From: a virus | DNA: 64,000 nucleotides | Strand: one strand, 5' to 3' | Virus record (IMG/VR): IMGVR_UViG_3300017987_000070 | Coordinates: 21,797-85,796 of that record | Part shown: positions 13,013 to 62,373 of the stretch, piece after piece | Layout of the letters: each line of letters starts with the position of its first letter | Numbering within the stretch: position 1 is the first letter of the stretch | Position numbers and translations under genes: made by a program | Notes under the pieces: generated by a model | What the model saw: the letters and a program-made list of their open reading frames with translations, nothing else | Told to the model about the DNA's origin: nothing | The model's database searches: none

Positions 13013-14587
13013 TCAGTACGTTTCAAAAAACTCGCGATATCTCTTGGCGAGAGTTGATGATCGCTCTTCAGGGTCTAGACTGAGCGTTTTGGGATCAATG
13101 CCATTGAGCTTGAGCAACTCCGGGTGATGCCACCAGTTGTTTTTTGCCGACTTTGGGATGCGGATTAAGTTCGAGATCGTCTCGCCCGCAGAGTGCAGAA
13201 CTACCTCTTCTGAAGACTCAGGGTCTATCCAAATGATATCTTCGTTAGGGTACTCAGCCTTGATTTGTCGTGTGAGCCACTCTTCAGCCGCTCGAACGGT
13301 CTCGACGTATTTTTTACCGAAGAACACCCTGTCCGTCTTTGACAGATCAACTAGATACCCTTTGTATTGAAAAGGTTTACCCTTCTCTAGCCGGACTAAG
13401 CCGTCATAAAGAGCACTTCGACAACCGTCTTCCGACTTCATGACAGTCCCATAGCATGACCATTTGAAGAGAAGGTCTTCACCTGAATTCTTCAAGCTAG
13501 TGTTGAACACATCGGGGTTATGATGCCACCTTGCTAGAAGTGCTACCGTCATACTTTCGGTTATCTTTCCGCCCTTAAACATGGGCATTACAGTATAGAA
13601 AGCTTCCATGCAATCGCGGTACTCTTGGCAGAGCAAGTCCCAATTCTCTCTGATGTAAGTATAGTGCTTACGCTCGCTGACCACAAAAGAACTCAGTTCT
13701 GTCGTGGTATACTCAGGAGTTCGGAGCATGTAAGCTCTTAGCATGTTCGCGTAAGCTTTTTTTGTCATGGTTTCGTTGGTGTAGTCTGTACGGCTCAGCT
13801 GAGCTGTAAACTTATCGACGGCTTTATGCGCATCGAAGTCAGGACCGCTAATGCAGCTTTTTGAGTAGGTTTCATCGCTCATAACCTTCCCGTTTTTATT
13901 AACGCTTCGGAAGACCGCTTGTAAATCCGGGTCCGTAAAATCAGCGCTAAGAGTCTCATGTAAAAGATTCTTTTCACTGTAAGCCGAAAGCATATGCGAG
14001 AACTGGACCCAATCTGAAGGGGTTTTGAATTTGCCCTGAAGGAGGGGGAACCAGTAGGAGTGGGGAGTGTCAAACACAAGACAAAGAGGGAAGTACCCTT
14101 CAAAAGTGCTTGGGTCCTTTATGTCAATGTGGTCGATAACGGTGAAGAACCTGTCATACAGGAACGAGTCTGGGATCTCAGAGATTGGTCTATTCACGTA
14201 CTCCGATACAGCGTCTAGACAGATCGCGAAGGTTCCTTCCTGGGGCCGGGTTCGGGAGCGTTTTTTGTCCTCGTAAGGATTCTCGTACCCTTCAAAGGTA
14301 TTACATCGGAGTAGCGTGGTGGTCCTTTGTAGACCGTCACATACTTCGAACGCACATTGGGTTAAGTCGTACTGAGGGCCTCCCCTGTACGTGATTCGAC
14401 GCGATACTGCGTCTGGGGTATTAACGTGGTTGATCAAGAACAGGCCAGAACTAGCGTTCCGAAGCATCGAGTGGATGAACTTGCACTCGCGCTCGAAGTC
14501 CCATTCAGGTGTCCTCTGGTAGTAGGCCACTCGGTAACGGCCTTGTTGGAGTTCTTTGAGGTAAGTGCGAAGGGGTGTGTTTGACAT
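13013..14587 (-). CDS. DUF262/ParB-like (DGQQR-type) domain protein
   Basis: 524 aa from ATG 14587 (AAAGG eight bases upstream). A longer GTG start at 14647 lies inside the predicted promoter and is rejected. Residues 20-100 carry the DUF262 signature: YYQRTPEWD (22-30), then CDGLQRTTTLL (83-93), the counterpart of the DGQQRxTTL motif. Known DUF262 proteins include GmrSD-type restriction nucleases and other nucleotide-hydrolysing, DNA-directed enzymes. The C-terminal ~400 residues lack an obvious HNH (DUF1524) motif, so no nuclease is claimed. The gene is richer in A+T than its neighbours and has a separate host-like promoter, which fits a transferred accessory gene. Confidence 0.68.
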   Translation of the reverse strand: MSNTPLRTYLKELQQGRYRVAYYQRTPEWDFERECKFIHSMLRNASSGLFLINHVNTPDAVSRRITYRGGPQYDLTQCAFEVCDGLQRTTTLLRCNTFEGYENPYEDKKRSRTRPQEGTFAICLDAVSEYVNRPISEIPDSFLYDRFFTVIDHIDIKDPSTFEGYFPLCLVFDTPHSYWFPLLQGKFKTPSDWVQFSHMLSAYSEKNLLHETLSADFTDPDLQAVFRSVNKNGKVMSDETYSKSCISGPDFDAHKAVDKFTAQLSRTDYTNETMTKKAYANMLRAYMLRTPEYTTTELSSFVVSERKHYTYIRENWDLLCQEYRDCMEAFYTVMPMFKGGKITESMTVALLARWHHNPDVFNTSLKNSGEDLLFKWSCYGTVMKSEDGCRSALYDGLVRLEKGKPFQYKGYLVDLSKTDRVFFGKKYVETVRAAEEWLTRQIKAEYPNEDIIWIDPESSEEVVLHSAGETISNLIRIPKSAKNNWWHHPELLKLNGIDPKTLSLDPEERSSTLAKRYREFFETY

Positions 14588-14647
14588 GCTCAAAACCTTT
14601 GGGTGGGGTGGGGTGGTCTCAGATTCTCCCCGGTAGATTACGAACAC

Positions 14648-31866: not shown

Positions 31867-33936
31867 ATGCATGTAGATAGCAACGAAACGAAGCTGGACG
31901 TGGTGGGAGATGTTCACGGGTGCTACGACGAGTTGATCGAACTCGTCGAGAAGCTCGGATACGTCAAGGGGGAACGTGATTCCCTGTACCGTCACCCCGA
32001 GGGACGCCATCTGGTCTTCGTGGGTGACCTCACCGACCGTGGCCCGAAGAACCGTCTCGCCCTTCTGTTTGCTCTGAGGCATTCGGAGGCGGGTCTTGCC
32101 ACATACGTGCAGGGGAACCACGACAACAAGCTTGGGCGCGTGCTCAAGGGCAATGACGTTTACATCGGACATGGCCTTCAGGACACGTTGGATGAGCTAC
32201 AGGACATGAGCGCTGATCAGAAGCTCAAGCTCTCTGAGCGCATCCTGAGCCTCCCCATCTACGCGACGTTCGACGGCGGAAAGCTCCTCGTGGCACACGC
32301 CGCTCCTCCGCCCAAGGGTGCTTCCCGTAAGAAAGCCTTCTCCACTTGCCTGTATGGTCACACGACGGGGAGGAAGACCGAAAAGGGGTTCCCCGAGCGT
32401 CTGAACTGGGTCCCGACCTACAACGCGGAGGCGGGTGATGATACGCCCTTTGTGGTGTACGGTCACGTGACGCACAAGGAGGCGTACCTCACGGACCACG
32501 CGTGCTGTATCGACACGGCGTGCTTCGCGGGGAACAAGCTCTCTGCGTTCCGCTACCCGGAGCACAAGATCGTCTCGGTGAAGTCGCAGCAGTCGTGGGA
32601 TGGGGAGACGGATCTCGTCTTGCATGACAAGAAGAACGCTCCTACTCCCACGCGAGGCATCAAGGCGTCTCCTATGACGACGCTTCACCTCCCCACGCTC
32701 TTGAAGAGGCTTCGTGAGAATGAGGAGGAGGTCCTCTACCTCATTGACACGGACCCGAAGCTCAAGAAGAGAGAGCACGAGAACGGGCTCATCATCGCGA
32801 ACTCGTCACCCGCGCTTTTCGAGCCGGAGGAAGAGCACCAGATGTACGCCAAGGGGATCGTCTACACGCGTGACCCCTACCGTCTGGTGTCTCTTCCTCT
32901 CATCAAGATGTTCAACCACACGATGCGAGAGATCTCGGACAACACGACGAAAGAGATGCTCGCGGACAAGGAGGTGAGCGTCATCTTCCCTGACAAGGCA
33001 GACGGCACCATGATTCAGGTGTTCGAGCACGACGGGGAGGTGTACCTGACGACGCGCTCTGTACTGGAAGGTACTGAGACTGACATGGATGAGGGGAACT
33101 TCGACTATGTGGGAGAAGCGAGGAAGATCCTCGCGGAGAAGTACCCTCTGGCGTTGAAGCATGACATCGTGAAGACGTACAGTCTCGTCTTCGAGATGAT
33201 TCACCCTGACACGCGTATCGTCACCGACTACGGGGACCGTCGTGACATGGTTCTCCTCGCAGTGTACGATCACGTTGAGAACTGCTACAAGTCGAGCGAC
33301 TTCCTCAACCGGATGCCCTACCTCTACGGCTTCACGGTAGGGAAGAATCACTCTCCTGACACGGGCAGCTTCGACGGGGACGTCAAGGCGATCCTCGATC
33401 ACCTCGACACCGAGTATGACAACATGCCGGAAGGCGTGATCGCGGTCTTCGAGAAGGAAGGGGAGATTCAGCACCGGGTCAAGATCAAGACGCAGGACTA
33501 CCTTCGTTACCACCGTCTGAAGTTCCACTGCACCTACAAGAGCGTGGTGCAGATGGCGTGGTTCAATGAGGACCTACACGAGTGGGATGCCTTCCTGGCG
33601 TACCTTCGAGAGAACGGTCTGACCGAGGAAGAGGTCGAGAGCTTCTACAAGGAGCACTTCGAGGAGTTCAAGGTCTGGCTCGACAGCGTGAAGGCGCGGC
33701 AGGAGGAGGTCCTGTCCTGGCTCGAAGGGTACAACTCTGGGGTTGACACCTCGGACAAGCGCCTGTACTATAAGAACCTAGCGATGACTGCCAAGGAGCA
33801 GAAGCCCGACGTCTTCGGGCTCATCATGCTCGCAGCTCGAAAAGGAATCGACCTCATTGAAGTCATGAGGGCCTTCCCTGCCTATGACGGCTTCAAGGGG
33901 GAGGTGGATAAGTGGAGGAAAGAGAATGAAGCTTGA
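31867..33936 (+). CDS. Metallophosphatase / RNA ligase (Rnl1-type) fusion
   Basis: 689 aa, GGAG eight bases before ATG. Residues 10-250 form a binuclear metallophosphatase like the central domain of bacterial Pnkp and PrpE: GDVHGCYDEL (14-23), GDLTDRGP (53-60), GNHD (83-86), later YGHVTHKEAY. Residues ~350-560 form a T4 RNA ligase 1-type nucleotidyltransferase: motif I KADGT with the adenylation Lys at 377, motif III VFEMIHPDTRIV (441-452), motif IV EGVIAVF (522-528), motif V RVKIKTQDYLRYH (537-549). The phosphatase would clear 3' phosphates (and possibly 2',3'-cyclic ends) and the ligase would join RNA. In bacterial Pnkp the kinase, phosphatase and ligase are one chain; here the kinase-type domain is a separate gene (59403-59924). 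Own promoter (copy B). Confidence 0.85.
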   Translation: MHVDSNETKLDVVGDVHGCYDELIELVEKLGYVKGERDSLYRHPEGRHLVFVGDLTDRGPKNRLALLFALRHSEAGLATYVQGNHDNKLGRVLKGNDVYIGHGLQDTLDELQDMSADQKLKLSERILSLPIYATFDGGKLLVAHAAPPPKGASRKKAFSTCLYGHTTGRKTEKGFPERLNWVPTYNAEAGDDTPFVVYGHVTHKEAYLTDHACCIDTACFAGNKLSAFRYPEHKIVSVKSQQSWDGETDLVLHDKKNAPTPTRGIKASPMTTLHLPTLLKRLRENEEEVLYLIDTDPKLKKREHENGLIIANSSPALFEPEEEHQMYAKGIVYTRDPYRLVSLPLIKMFNHTMREISDNTTKEMLADKEVSVIFPDKADGTMIQVFEHDGEVYLTTRSVLEGTETDMDEGNFDYVGEARKILAEKYPLALKHDIVKTYSLVFEMIHPDTRIVTDYGDRRDMVLLAVYDHVENCYKSSDFLNRMPYLYGFTVGKNHSPDTGSFDGDVKAILDHLDTEYDNMPEGVIAVFEKEGEIQHRVKIKTQDYLRYHRLKFHCTYKSVVQMAWFNEDLHEWDAFLAYLRENGLTEEEVESFYKEHFEEFKVWLDSVKARQEEVLSWLEGYNSGVDTSDKRLYYKNLAMTAKEQKPDVFGLIMLAARKGIDLIEVMRAFPAYDGFKGEVDKWRKENEA

Positions 33937-34141: not shown

Positions 34142-34927
34142 TCAGATCTTGAGAGCCTTGCTCACCTGAGTGTAGCCCTGATTGTAAAGGTCAAGGGCTT
34201 CCTCACGGTTCATGAGCAAGTTCGCGCCGCTCTTGGTGGTCTTGACCCGTATCGTCCTGGCGAACACGGCATCTTCCATGTGCTCTTTGTCGATAGCTCC
34301 CATCATCGTGCCCAGAACTGCGAACCCGTAGTCGAGTAGAGACTCCACGGGCTTCCTCTCTGGGTCAGAGACGACCTTGATTCCGATCACGTCTTCACCT
34401 GACCCGAAGATGTCCAGTGGGAACCCCACCGCGACGCCTCCGTCTACATAACGCGCGCCTTCTATCTCGACGGGAGTGAACGCGAAGGGTACCGACATGG
34501 AAGCTCTCACCGCCAAGGGCAAATCGGCATCGGGGGTATCATGTGAGGAGAACACCACGCTCTCTTGCGTGTCAATGTTCACGGTCCCTACGTGCAGAGG
34601 TATGACCGTATGCCCGAAGGTACGTGACATCTCCTGACGGAAGACGTCAAGGAAGGCGTGACCTTTGATCAAGCCCCAGGATAAGGGAGGGAACCACGAC
34701 GGATCGATGAGACCGAGGTTGTCCCCCGGAGCCGTATCCAAGATCACCTGCTTGATGTCCTCTGAGGACTTCCCAGAAGCCACGAGAGCGGCGATGATAC
34801 TCCCACCCGATACCCCGGCTATCTCCTCTATCTCAAAGCTCTCTGTGAGCCTGGAAATGGCTCCAGCGTGAAGGGGATACAGAAGCCCAGAACCGGAAAG
34901 CACGACTTTGATTTTGGGTTTGCTCAT
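34142..34927 (-). CDS. Patatin-like phospholipase
   Basis: 261 aa. The patatin catalytic layout is present: glycine-rich oxyanion stretch VVLSGSGLLYPLHAGAI (8-24), nucleophile motif GVSGGS (38-43, Ser40), and the aspartate dyad partner in VDGGVAVGFP (161-170, Asp162). Length fits a bare patatin domain. Patatins hydrolyse acyl chains of membrane lipids; no signal peptide, so it would act from the cytoplasmic side unless exported during lysis. Start overlaps the upstream stop by ATGA. Possible roles: membrane damage at lysis, lipid remodelling, or competition with other phages; none is shown. Confidence 0.8.
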   Translation of the reverse strand: MSKPKIKVVLSGSGLLYPLHAGAISRLTESFEIEEIAGVSGGSIIAALVASGKSSEDIKQVILDTAPGDNLGLIDPSWFPPLSWGLIKGHAFLDVFRQEMSRTFGHTVIPLHVGTVNIDTQESVVFSSHDTPDADLPLAVRASMSVPFAFTPVEIEGARYVDGGVAVGFPLDIFGSGEDVIGIKVVSDPERKPVESLLDYGFAVLGTMMGAIDKEHMEDAVFARTIRVKTTKSGANLLMNREEALDLYNQGYTQVSKALKI

Positions 34928-58134: not shown

Positions 58135-58710
58135 TTACCCAATATGCCCAAGCACGAATATAGGGAGCCACACGTTACCAACCCCTCCTTCGAGGTAGAT
58201 TTCACCTGCCAACACGGTTCCGTTTTTCTCCAGAGCACGATACTCGACCACGTAGCTTCGGTAAGCCTCGGGGATGTCTTCCATCCCAACGTACTTCGAG
58301 TGAGAATAGAAGCCTTGCACGTCCTTATACGGCCCTACACGGACGAACGCCATTGAGTCGGTCCACAACTCATCAAAGCTAAACTCGTTCAAATCAGGCT
58401 CGCTTTCAGGAGCTAGAAGGGCTTGTCCCGTCTGGGAGATGGCTTCGATAAGAGTACCGATCGTAAACCTGTACCACTCCCCTTTACCCGACGCCCTTGA
58501 CCTATGAGCAGTTAAGGCGTGGTGCAGGTCTTGCTCCTCGCCGTAGGTTCCCGGCCACATGTGGACGAATTCCAGGTCTTCGTGGTTGCCCGTCTGGACA
58601 CCGGGCAGGCGTCCAGTTGACGGGTCCTCCTTGGTCGTGAAGCCGACCTTATAAACATCATCCCCTACGACCTTGAAGACGTAGAGGATGCCTTGAGTGT
58701 GTCTTTGCAT
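58135..58710 (-). CDS. GIY-YIG-type nuclease domain protein (T5orf172/MUG113-like)
   Basis: 191 aa from ATG 58710 with AAGGAGG upstream. N-terminal half has the MUG113/T5orf172 layout: GILYVFKVVGDDVYKVGFTT (7-26), then a GRLPGVQTGNHEDLEFVH segment, GTYGEEQDLHHAL (54-66) and KGEWYRFT. Known members are GIY-YIG-superfamily, often phage-borne nucleases. The C-terminal ~100 residues (FSFDELWTDSMAFVRVG) are unrecognised. The ribosome binding site sits in a hairpin. Last gene of the operon led by the kinase. Confidence 0.7.
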   Translation of the reverse strand: MQRHTQGILYVFKVVGDDVYKVGFTTKEDPSTGRLPGVQTGNHEDLEFVHMWPGTYGEEQDLHHALTAHRSRASGKGEWYRFTIGTLIEAISQTGQALLAPESEPDLNEFSFDELWTDSMAFVRVGPYKDVQGFYSHSKYVGMEDIPEAYRSYVVEYRALEKNGTVLAGEIYLEGGVGNVWLPIFVLGHIG

Positions 58711-59403: not shown

Positions 59404-59924
59404 CACGAACGCTCCATCTTGGTAAAGCCCGAGGCCGTCGTGTAACGCCAGACCTCATCGAACTTGTCATTCTCAACAAGGGTCTGGAGACCTCCGTTGA
59501 ACTGATCCATCTGCTTGTCAATGACCCACTCAGGGACCACCCTCTCGCGCGAGAGGTTACGATTCTTGCACACGTCGAGGCTCTCGTCCACGACGATCGC
59601 GATGAGCGTGTTCCAGTCATTCTTGGAGGACGTGAGCTGTTTCCGGGCCTTGGGAGTCGTCGAGGTCGCGTCGAAGATCGTCGCCTGCCTGAACCTCATC
59701 CGACCCGCCCACAAGGTATGAGCGAGGTCGAAAGCGTAGCGGGAGCACTTCTGATTCGAGGCGTCTCCCGACACGAGGCGCCGCATCTCATCCGTGGAGA
59801 CGATCATGCCCTCCTCGGGGCAGATCTGGGCCGCGAGGGTAGACTTGCCCGAACCCGAGCACCCAACCATCACCACGCCCACATTTCCCTTCGCAAGCTT
59901 CTCACGCATCTCATTGATATCCAT
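59403..59924 (-). CDS. Pnkp-type polynucleotide kinase (5' RNA/DNA kinase domain)
   Basis: 173 aa from ATG 59924; the ribosome binding site AGGAGG sits too close to the GTG at 59927 to favour it. It matches the kinase domain of bacterial Pnkp: Walker A GCSGSGKST (21-29), STDEMRRLVSGD (43-54), IFDATSTTPKARKQL (84-97), VCKNRNLSRERVVPEWVI (118-135, lid arginines), KQMDQF. Its length equals the kinase domain alone (~170 aa), with no phosphatase or ligase attached; those occur as one chain at 31867. The reaction is transfer of the ATP gamma-phosphate to a 5'-OH end. Driven by promoter copy D. Confidence 0.85.
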   Translation of the reverse strand: MDINEMREKLAKGNVGVVMVGCSGSGKSTLAAQICPEEGMIVSTDEMRRLVSGDASNQKCSRYAFDLAHTLWAGRMRFRQATIFDATSTTPKARKQLTSSKNDWNTLIAIVVDESLDVCKNRNLSRERVVPEWVIDKQMDQFNGGLQTLVENDKFDEVWRYTTASGFTKMERS

Positions 59925-62151: not shown

Positions 62152-62373
62152 TCAGTCGATGTGGCGGTAGGTGATACGGCCCTTGGTCATGTCATAAGGC
62201 GACATCTCCACGACCACGGAGTCCCCTACGAGGATGCGGATGTTGTTCTTGCGCATCCTGCCCGAGATATGGGCCAGGATCTCGAGTTCGTTCTCCAGGG
62301 TCACCCGGAACATGGCGTTGGGGAGTGCCTCAGTCACGGTCCCCTCGACCTCAATCATGTCTGCTTTAGCCAT
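62152..62373 (-). CDS. infA: Translation initiation factor IF-1
   Basis: 73 aa, the normal size of bacterial IF-1 (72). The whole sequence fits IF-1: starts [20 protein letters not shown], continues [18 protein letters not shown], then [16 protein letters not shown] and [14 protein letters not shown], against E. coli IF-1 in the same register. It would bind the 30S A site with IF-2/IF-3. Location between a dCTP deaminase gene (8-base overlap) and the 2H gene shows it is phage-encoded. The conserved OB-fold core suggests a functional factor, perhaps favouring phage messages. Huge phages are known to carry translation factors. Confidence 0.93.

Follow-up and report, generated by a model that had tools for sequence, protein, structure and literature searches.

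RNA repair allows phages to withstand hosts that cleave their own tRNAs, and the locus studied here raises the question of how a phage that carries a phosphatase-ligase fusion, with a kinase encoded far from it, could heal and seal broken RNA. The stretch analysed (hereafter the window, 64,000 nucleotides) corresponds to positions 21797-85796 of a linear viral record of 85.8 kb (G000:C1:21797-85796). An earlier note had described a split RNA-repair set in it; the fusion and the free kinase stand, but a 2H gene, an IF-1 gene and a split state of the phosphatase and ligase in two relatives (G002 and G003) had been overlooked (Table 1). Our reading, to which we give a probability of about three in four, is that the fusion, the kinase and the 2H protein, with the activities predicted for them, form a phage pathway of RNA end healing and sealing. 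It is based on the domains, their catalytic residues, the predicted folds and the presence of kinase, phosphatase, ligase and 2H genes in the same viruses.

Table 1. Positions in the window of the putative RNA-repair genes and domains and of the adjacent IF-1 gene.
Feature	Position	Strand	Evidence
Phosphatase-ligase fusion gene, 689 aa	31867..33936	+	single uninterrupted frame, profile matches, predicted structure
Pnkp/PrpE-type metallophosphatase domain, residues 9-247	31891..32607	+	TIGR04075, 4j6o, Foldseek
Rnl1-type ligase domain, residues about 327-667	32845..33867	+	PHROG 562, hhalign, Foldseek 2c5u
Single-domain Pnkp-type polynucleotide kinase, 174 aa	59403..59927	-	TIGR04075 kinase part, 4gp6, conserved residues
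2H phosphoesterase, 190 aa	61574..62146	-	HVT 40-42, HLT 128-130; PF13563; PDB profile match
Translation initiation factor IF-1	62152-62373	-	PF01176, 2.1e-28

The gene at 31867, whose ATG is preceded by GGAG, had been said to join a Pnkp/PrpE-like metallophosphatase to a T4 Rnl1-type ligase, and the motifs, profile scores and predicted structure all agree with this. In profile searches the phosphatase part matched the phosphatase portion of TIGR04075 (Pnkp) at 2.4e-63 and PrpE at 4e-55, and a sequence match to 4j6o (the CthPnkp phosphatase) reached 5.8e-48. The ligase part matched PHROG 562 (T4 RnlA; 1.3e-33, reaching position 357 of 377) and TIGR02308 (T4 Rnl1; 8.5e-11), which bears out the claim that it is of the Rnl1 and not of the Pnkp type; profile-profile comparison (hhalign) of the ligases of the window's clade with phage Rnl1s gave a probability of 98.7% and an E value of 3e-16. 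Judged on sequence comparison, the domain scores of the fusion exceed chance by far. The NCBIfam scores of fusion and kinase sit under the curated full-length cut-offs, as expected for TIGR04075 since single domains were compared with a model of 851 positions; searches with both proteins matched the Pnkp, PrpE and Rnl1 families, three of those that the note had named. An assembly error as the source of the fusion was ruled out, because a related virus (G001) carries the same fusion in one open frame (708 aa, 51% identity to the window).

The phosphatase motifs are GDVHG (14-18), GDLTDRG (53-59), GNHD (83-86) and YGHV (198-201), and the catalytic residues D15, H17, D54, R58, N84, H85, H144 and H200 are kept in the window and its relatives. 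In the ligase we found KADG (377-380), EMIHPDTRIV (443-452), PEGVIAVF (521-528) and RVKIK (537-541). Aligned with Rnl1, these hold nucleotidyltransferase motifs I, III, IV and V (K377xDG, E443, E522G, K539xK541), and K377 (motif I), E443, E522, K539 and K541 are likewise kept in the window and its relatives. The arginine of the Rnl1 ARG motif (Arg54 in T4) is Lys329 in the window and a lysine in both relatives, which is a conservative change. By profile, sequence-to-structure and fold matches the phosphatase is thus a binuclear metallophosphatase domain of the Pnkp type. Bacterial Pnkp unites kinase, phosphatase and its own type of ligase in a single chain; the fusion does not, its ligase being Rnl1-type and the kinase lying in another gene. 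Nor did profile searches of the fusion and the kinase find a kinase fused to a HAD phosphatase, as in Pnkp of the T4 type. The three-domain chain of PHROG 8238 is also absent, the kinase being separate in all three viruses.

The fusion was modelled by AlphaFold2 with 33 aligned sequences (mean pLDDT 81.5, pTM 0.61, low-confidence linker at 244-269). The first PDB match of the model in Foldseek was the Clostridium thermocellum Pnkp phosphatase 4j6o (E 8e-23, target TM 0.83). Superposition on Rnl1 had been named as a check, and in the part of it that was run the ligase half aligned with T4 Rnl1 (2c5u), the next match, at E 3e-14 over 439 columns, but with an rmsd of 10.7 and a TM of 0.50; the Rnl1 entries 5tt6 and 9do4 were further matches. 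Given the pTM and the ligase rmsd of about 10, the orientation of the domains and the C-terminal part of the ligase, which is less confidently modelled, should be regarded as uncertain. A profile built from the three ligases of the clade alone gave no PDB ligase match, whereas wider ligase profiles and the predicted structure did reach PDB ligases.

The claim of a distant single-domain kinase stood as to identity (1.1e-25 against the kinase part of TIGR04075), but not as to its end, which had been placed at 59924 and which a GTG start with a strong Shine-Dalgarno sequence moves to 59927. Matches to CthPnkp kinase structures had E values of about 1e-17 (4gp6, 2.7e-17), and the P-loop (22-30), D46, R49, R123, R127 and R129 are kept. 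In the window the kinase sits 26 kb from the fusion on the opposite strand, and its neighbours on the minus strand encode an MUG113/T5orf172-type protein, a DUF6011 protein, the 2H phosphoesterase, IF-1 and a dCTP deaminase. The two HxT motifs of the 2H protein (H40-V-T42 and H128-L-T130), which define a 2H phosphoesterase, are invariant across the three viruses. The window protein matched PF13563 at 1.7e-4, under its cut-off, and the two relatives at 1.3e-10 and 1.7e-9, over it; the 2H profile matched a PDB RNA 2',3'-cyclic phosphodiesterase at 3e-6, and the best PHROG was that of a long phage RNA ligase containing a 2H-like region. By sequence the protein is a candidate opener of 2',3'-cyclic phosphates. 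The order IF-1, 2H, DUF6011, kinase is conserved in the relatives. IF-1 is 63-75% identical in G001 and G003, occurs in more distant relatives too (6 of the 18 related records searched), and is not an unusual neighbour, since huge phages are known to encode it (PMC7162821). The MUG113/T5orf172-type (GIY-YIG-like) gene near the kinase, at 58135-58710 (-), is conserved in G001. The G001 kinase is fused to an uncharacterised C-terminal domain without a Pfam match (L177:10748-11887), which in G003 is a separate gene near the kinase (L176:11473-12330, 55% identity, no Pfam match); this gene adjoins a small SAM-methyltransferase-like gene (L176:10935-11471) with weak Pfam matches, not Hen1.

Baseplate wedge proteins are encoded directly upstream of the fusion. 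A search of IMG/VR with a baseplate protein gave 39 relatives on contigs of up to 435 kb, and the protein also matched a 485-kb record of an uncultured phage; since the relatives reach these sizes, the record probably represents part of the genome of a large tailed phage. Occurrence of the repair genes was counted in 29 related viral records, which are incomplete. Both phosphatase and ligase are encoded in three of them (G001, G002 and G003). In G002 and G003, which are identical over the locus, a phosphatase (235 aa), an apparent membrane protein (87 aa) and a ligase (440 aa) are encoded by consecutive separate genes; a single phosphatase-ligase frame of 746 aa considered at the split locus was dropped, as stops lie between the two. 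That phosphatase and ligase are adjacent even when unfused (G003) points to a joint function. The kinase was found only in G001 and G003, G002 being a 41-kb fragment without it, and the pairing of fusion and kinase proposed in the note holds in the relatives; in G003 kinase and phosphatase share a strand and are separated by about 4 kb. Among 18 related records searched, a 2H gene was found only in G001 and G003. Hen1 (TIGR04074) is absent from G000-G003, which are incomplete records. This co-occurrence of kinase, 2H and phosphatase/ligase is supportive but not proof; linkage is not independent evidence because the viruses are close kin and the records incomplete.

Three other relatives (L134, L156 and L161, in records G008, G024 and G029) encode RtcB but neither the fusion nor the kinase; a weak match to the phosphatase alone was seen in G024. 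RtcB may possibly replace the phosphatase-ligase within the clade. Ligase systems seem to be exchanged within one phage clade, some members having phosphatase/ligase, kinase and 2H and others RtcB; this suggests that the defence pressure on RNA changes.

In the proposed pathway, RNA cut by a ribonuclease would have a 5'-OH at one of its new ends and a 2',3'-cyclic phosphate or a 3'-phosphate at the other. The cyclic and terminal phosphate would be cleared to a 3'-OH by the 2H enzyme, the phosphatase domain or both, the free kinase would phosphorylate the 5'-OH, and the Rnl1 domain, adenylylated on K377, would join the ends; 3' healing and sealing would thus be coupled in one chain and 5' healing left to a separate protein. 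Such a division of labour fits a model for jumbo phages, which assigns the opening of cyclic ends to 2H enzymes, healing to phosphatases and kinases and sealing to ATP-dependent ligases, calcineurin-like phosphatases having been noted in a few jumbo phages (PMC7824862). We infer these activities, together with a cooperation or physical association of the proteins and host tRNA as the target, no tRNA gene being found by ARAGORN in the whole 85.8-kb record; the pathway may plausibly mend tRNAs cleaved by anticodon nucleases. T4 Rnl1 is not known to need Hen1. The ligase of bacterial Pnkp-type systems is activated by Hen1 (PMC4411300), a partner with which a system relying on an Rnl1 ligase instead could dispense. 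The natural fusion and its split version in a close relative make channelling between 3' healing and sealing testable. Points against the pathway are the distance of 26 kb between kinase and fusion, on different strands, and the lysine at position 329 in the ARG motif of all three viruses.

The phosphatase domain could instead be PrpE/ApaH-like and hydrolyse dinucleoside polyphosphates or RNA 5' ends that are capped or adenylylated; in the fusion it would then strip Np4-type caps or rescue stalled AppRNA intermediates and not heal 3' ends. Its PrpE score (4e-55) is indeed close to that for Pnkp, and its clade leans weakly to PrpE-like proteins in the tree (85/78; 99/85 with a long branch). We nevertheless hold this to be decidedly improbable: Pnkp outscored PrpE, a solved Pnkp phosphatase was the top structure by both sequence and fold, the known PrpE-like genes examined are stand-alone, and the kinase and 2H gene of the same viruses suit 3'/5' healing better. 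Far less credible still is a late tail gene whose Rnl1 domain serves tail-fibre attachment. This attachment is the second activity of T4 RnlA (gp63), and baseplate genes come before the fusion in the window and adjoin the locus in relatives, but in G003 the baseplate genes occupy the other strand from phosphatase and ligase, and the active sites of both domains, needless for attachment alone, are kept.

The kinase and 2H protein could also act in another pathway, either nucleotide metabolism or anti-cyclic-oligonucleotide defence (Acb1 of T4, a 2H-fold protein, defends against cyclic-oligonucleotide signalling), in which case the phosphatase-ligase would use a host kinase or ends that are already 5'-phosphorylated. 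Such a separation would suit their clustering with IF-1, dCTP deaminase and DUF6011 genes 26 kb from the fusion, and the extra C-terminal domain of unknown function on the G001 kinase. It appears unlikely, as the best match of the kinase is Pnkp by about 20 orders of magnitude in the profile search, the 2H profile matches an RNA phosphodiesterase with no Acb1 among the PDB structures listed for it, the best 2H PHROG is an RNA ligase, and kinase, 2H and phosphatase/ligase occur in the same viruses. We retain RNA end healing and sealing as the probable role of the three proteins.

The note had presented this set as an alternative to the bacterial Pnkp and T4 arrangements; the arrangement is real, but the comparison was incomplete, other phage permutations being known. 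The phosphatase and kinase domains of bacterial Pnkp (TIGR04075) are homologous to those of the window (40-45% and 30-37% identity), but Pnkp carries a ligase of its own type on the same chain and has Hen1 as partner, where the window has an Rnl1 ligase and a separate kinase. T4 Pnkp and T4 Rnl1, a pair whose known role is phage tRNA repair, share with the window an Rnl1-type ligase and a kinase separate from it, but fuse a HAD-type phosphatase to the kinase, whereas the window fuses a binuclear metallophosphatase to the ligase. The Pnkp1-Rnl-Hen1 complex of Capnocytophaga gingivalis is also a T4-like/Pnkp-like hybrid split over several proteins, but in mirror image, with a T4-like kinase/HAD phosphatase, a Pnkp-type ligase and Hen1 (PMC4411300). 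Other ARRANGEMENTS are kinase-phosphatase-Rnl1 (K-P-Rnl1) single chains (PHROG 8238) in Staphylococcus phage CF7, Brochothrix phage A9, Alicyclobacillus phage KKP_3916 and Fusobacterium phage phiKSUM, and at the IMG/VR locus L001. These have the same three activities in the order phosphatase then Rnl1-type ligase, but their kinase is fused N-terminally, identity to the window fusion is about 20-24% overall, and their phosphatase and ligase lie on other tree branches. Ligases of the Staphylococcus and Brochothrix type lack most of the Rnl1 C-terminal part, as their PHROG 562 match stops at about position 265 of 377. Two viral loci (L016 and L017) encode the same three activities as neighbouring ligase, kinase and phosphatase genes, without fusion and in distant sequences; at L016:3984-6695, an Rnl1-type ligase, a kinase and a calcineurin-type phosphatase form an unfused RNA-repair cassette. 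Every part of the window set is of a known kind, and the fusion is one permutation among several, since other phages have K-P-Rnl1 chains or separate neighbouring genes.

In each of the 80 bacterial loci retained, which were picked by similarity to the window protein and are not a census, the phosphatase belongs to a Pnkp-like protein or to a short one of the PrpE type, and none of these loci matched the window ligase. Two Treponema loci (L041 and L045) considered as possible phosphatase-Rnl1 fusions were dropped as ordinary Pnkp. Scans of viral contigs with the kinase alone or the ligase half alone gave no matches, both being too divergent, and an alignment of seven ligases held no stretch conserved enough for scanning. 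With tblastn against 50,697 phage records and 72,556 plasmid records, no match covered 80% of the fusion. The literature searched contained no description of this phosphatase-ligase fusion; the main survey of RNA-repair domain architectures lay outside that search, and an earlier description is possible.

In the trees, whose deep joins are unsure because of long branches, the window phosphatase forms a clade (100/98) with those of G001 and G003, and this clade groups with bacterial Pnkp/PrpE and not with the phage K-P-Rnl1 chains (84/65; 99/88 with the window alone of its clade). The ligases of the three viruses also form one clade (100/100), beside T4-like and Caulobacter-phage Rnl1 (93/93) and apart from the Staphylococcus-type chains; the L001 ligase has no resolved place. 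The kinases, again one clade (97/92), fall outside the bacterial Pnkp kinases (94/96) in a tree rebuilt with relatives, an earlier version having lacked resolution. As the trees set both its phosphatase and its ligase apart from the K-P-Rnl1 chains, the fusion was probably assembled independently of them; origin by fission of such a chain is disfavoured, though the long branches leave room for it. The chances seem evenly balanced that a lineage of large phages built its own RNA-repair set (a Pnkp/PrpE phosphatase-Rnl1 fusion, a free kinase, a dedicated 2H opener and no Hen1) independently of bacterial Pnkp, T4 and the Staphylococcus-phage chains. If so, the fused and split states in close relatives would be a natural test of the coupling of 3' healing to sealing.

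Elsewhere in the window, a Patatin-like phospholipase gene lies at 34142-34927 (-) (PF01734, 1.6e-26) and is conserved in G001 (46% identity), and the gene at 13013-14647 (-) encodes a GmrSD/DUF262-type N-terminal domain (PF03235, just under the cut-off), possibly of a restriction-type nuclease.
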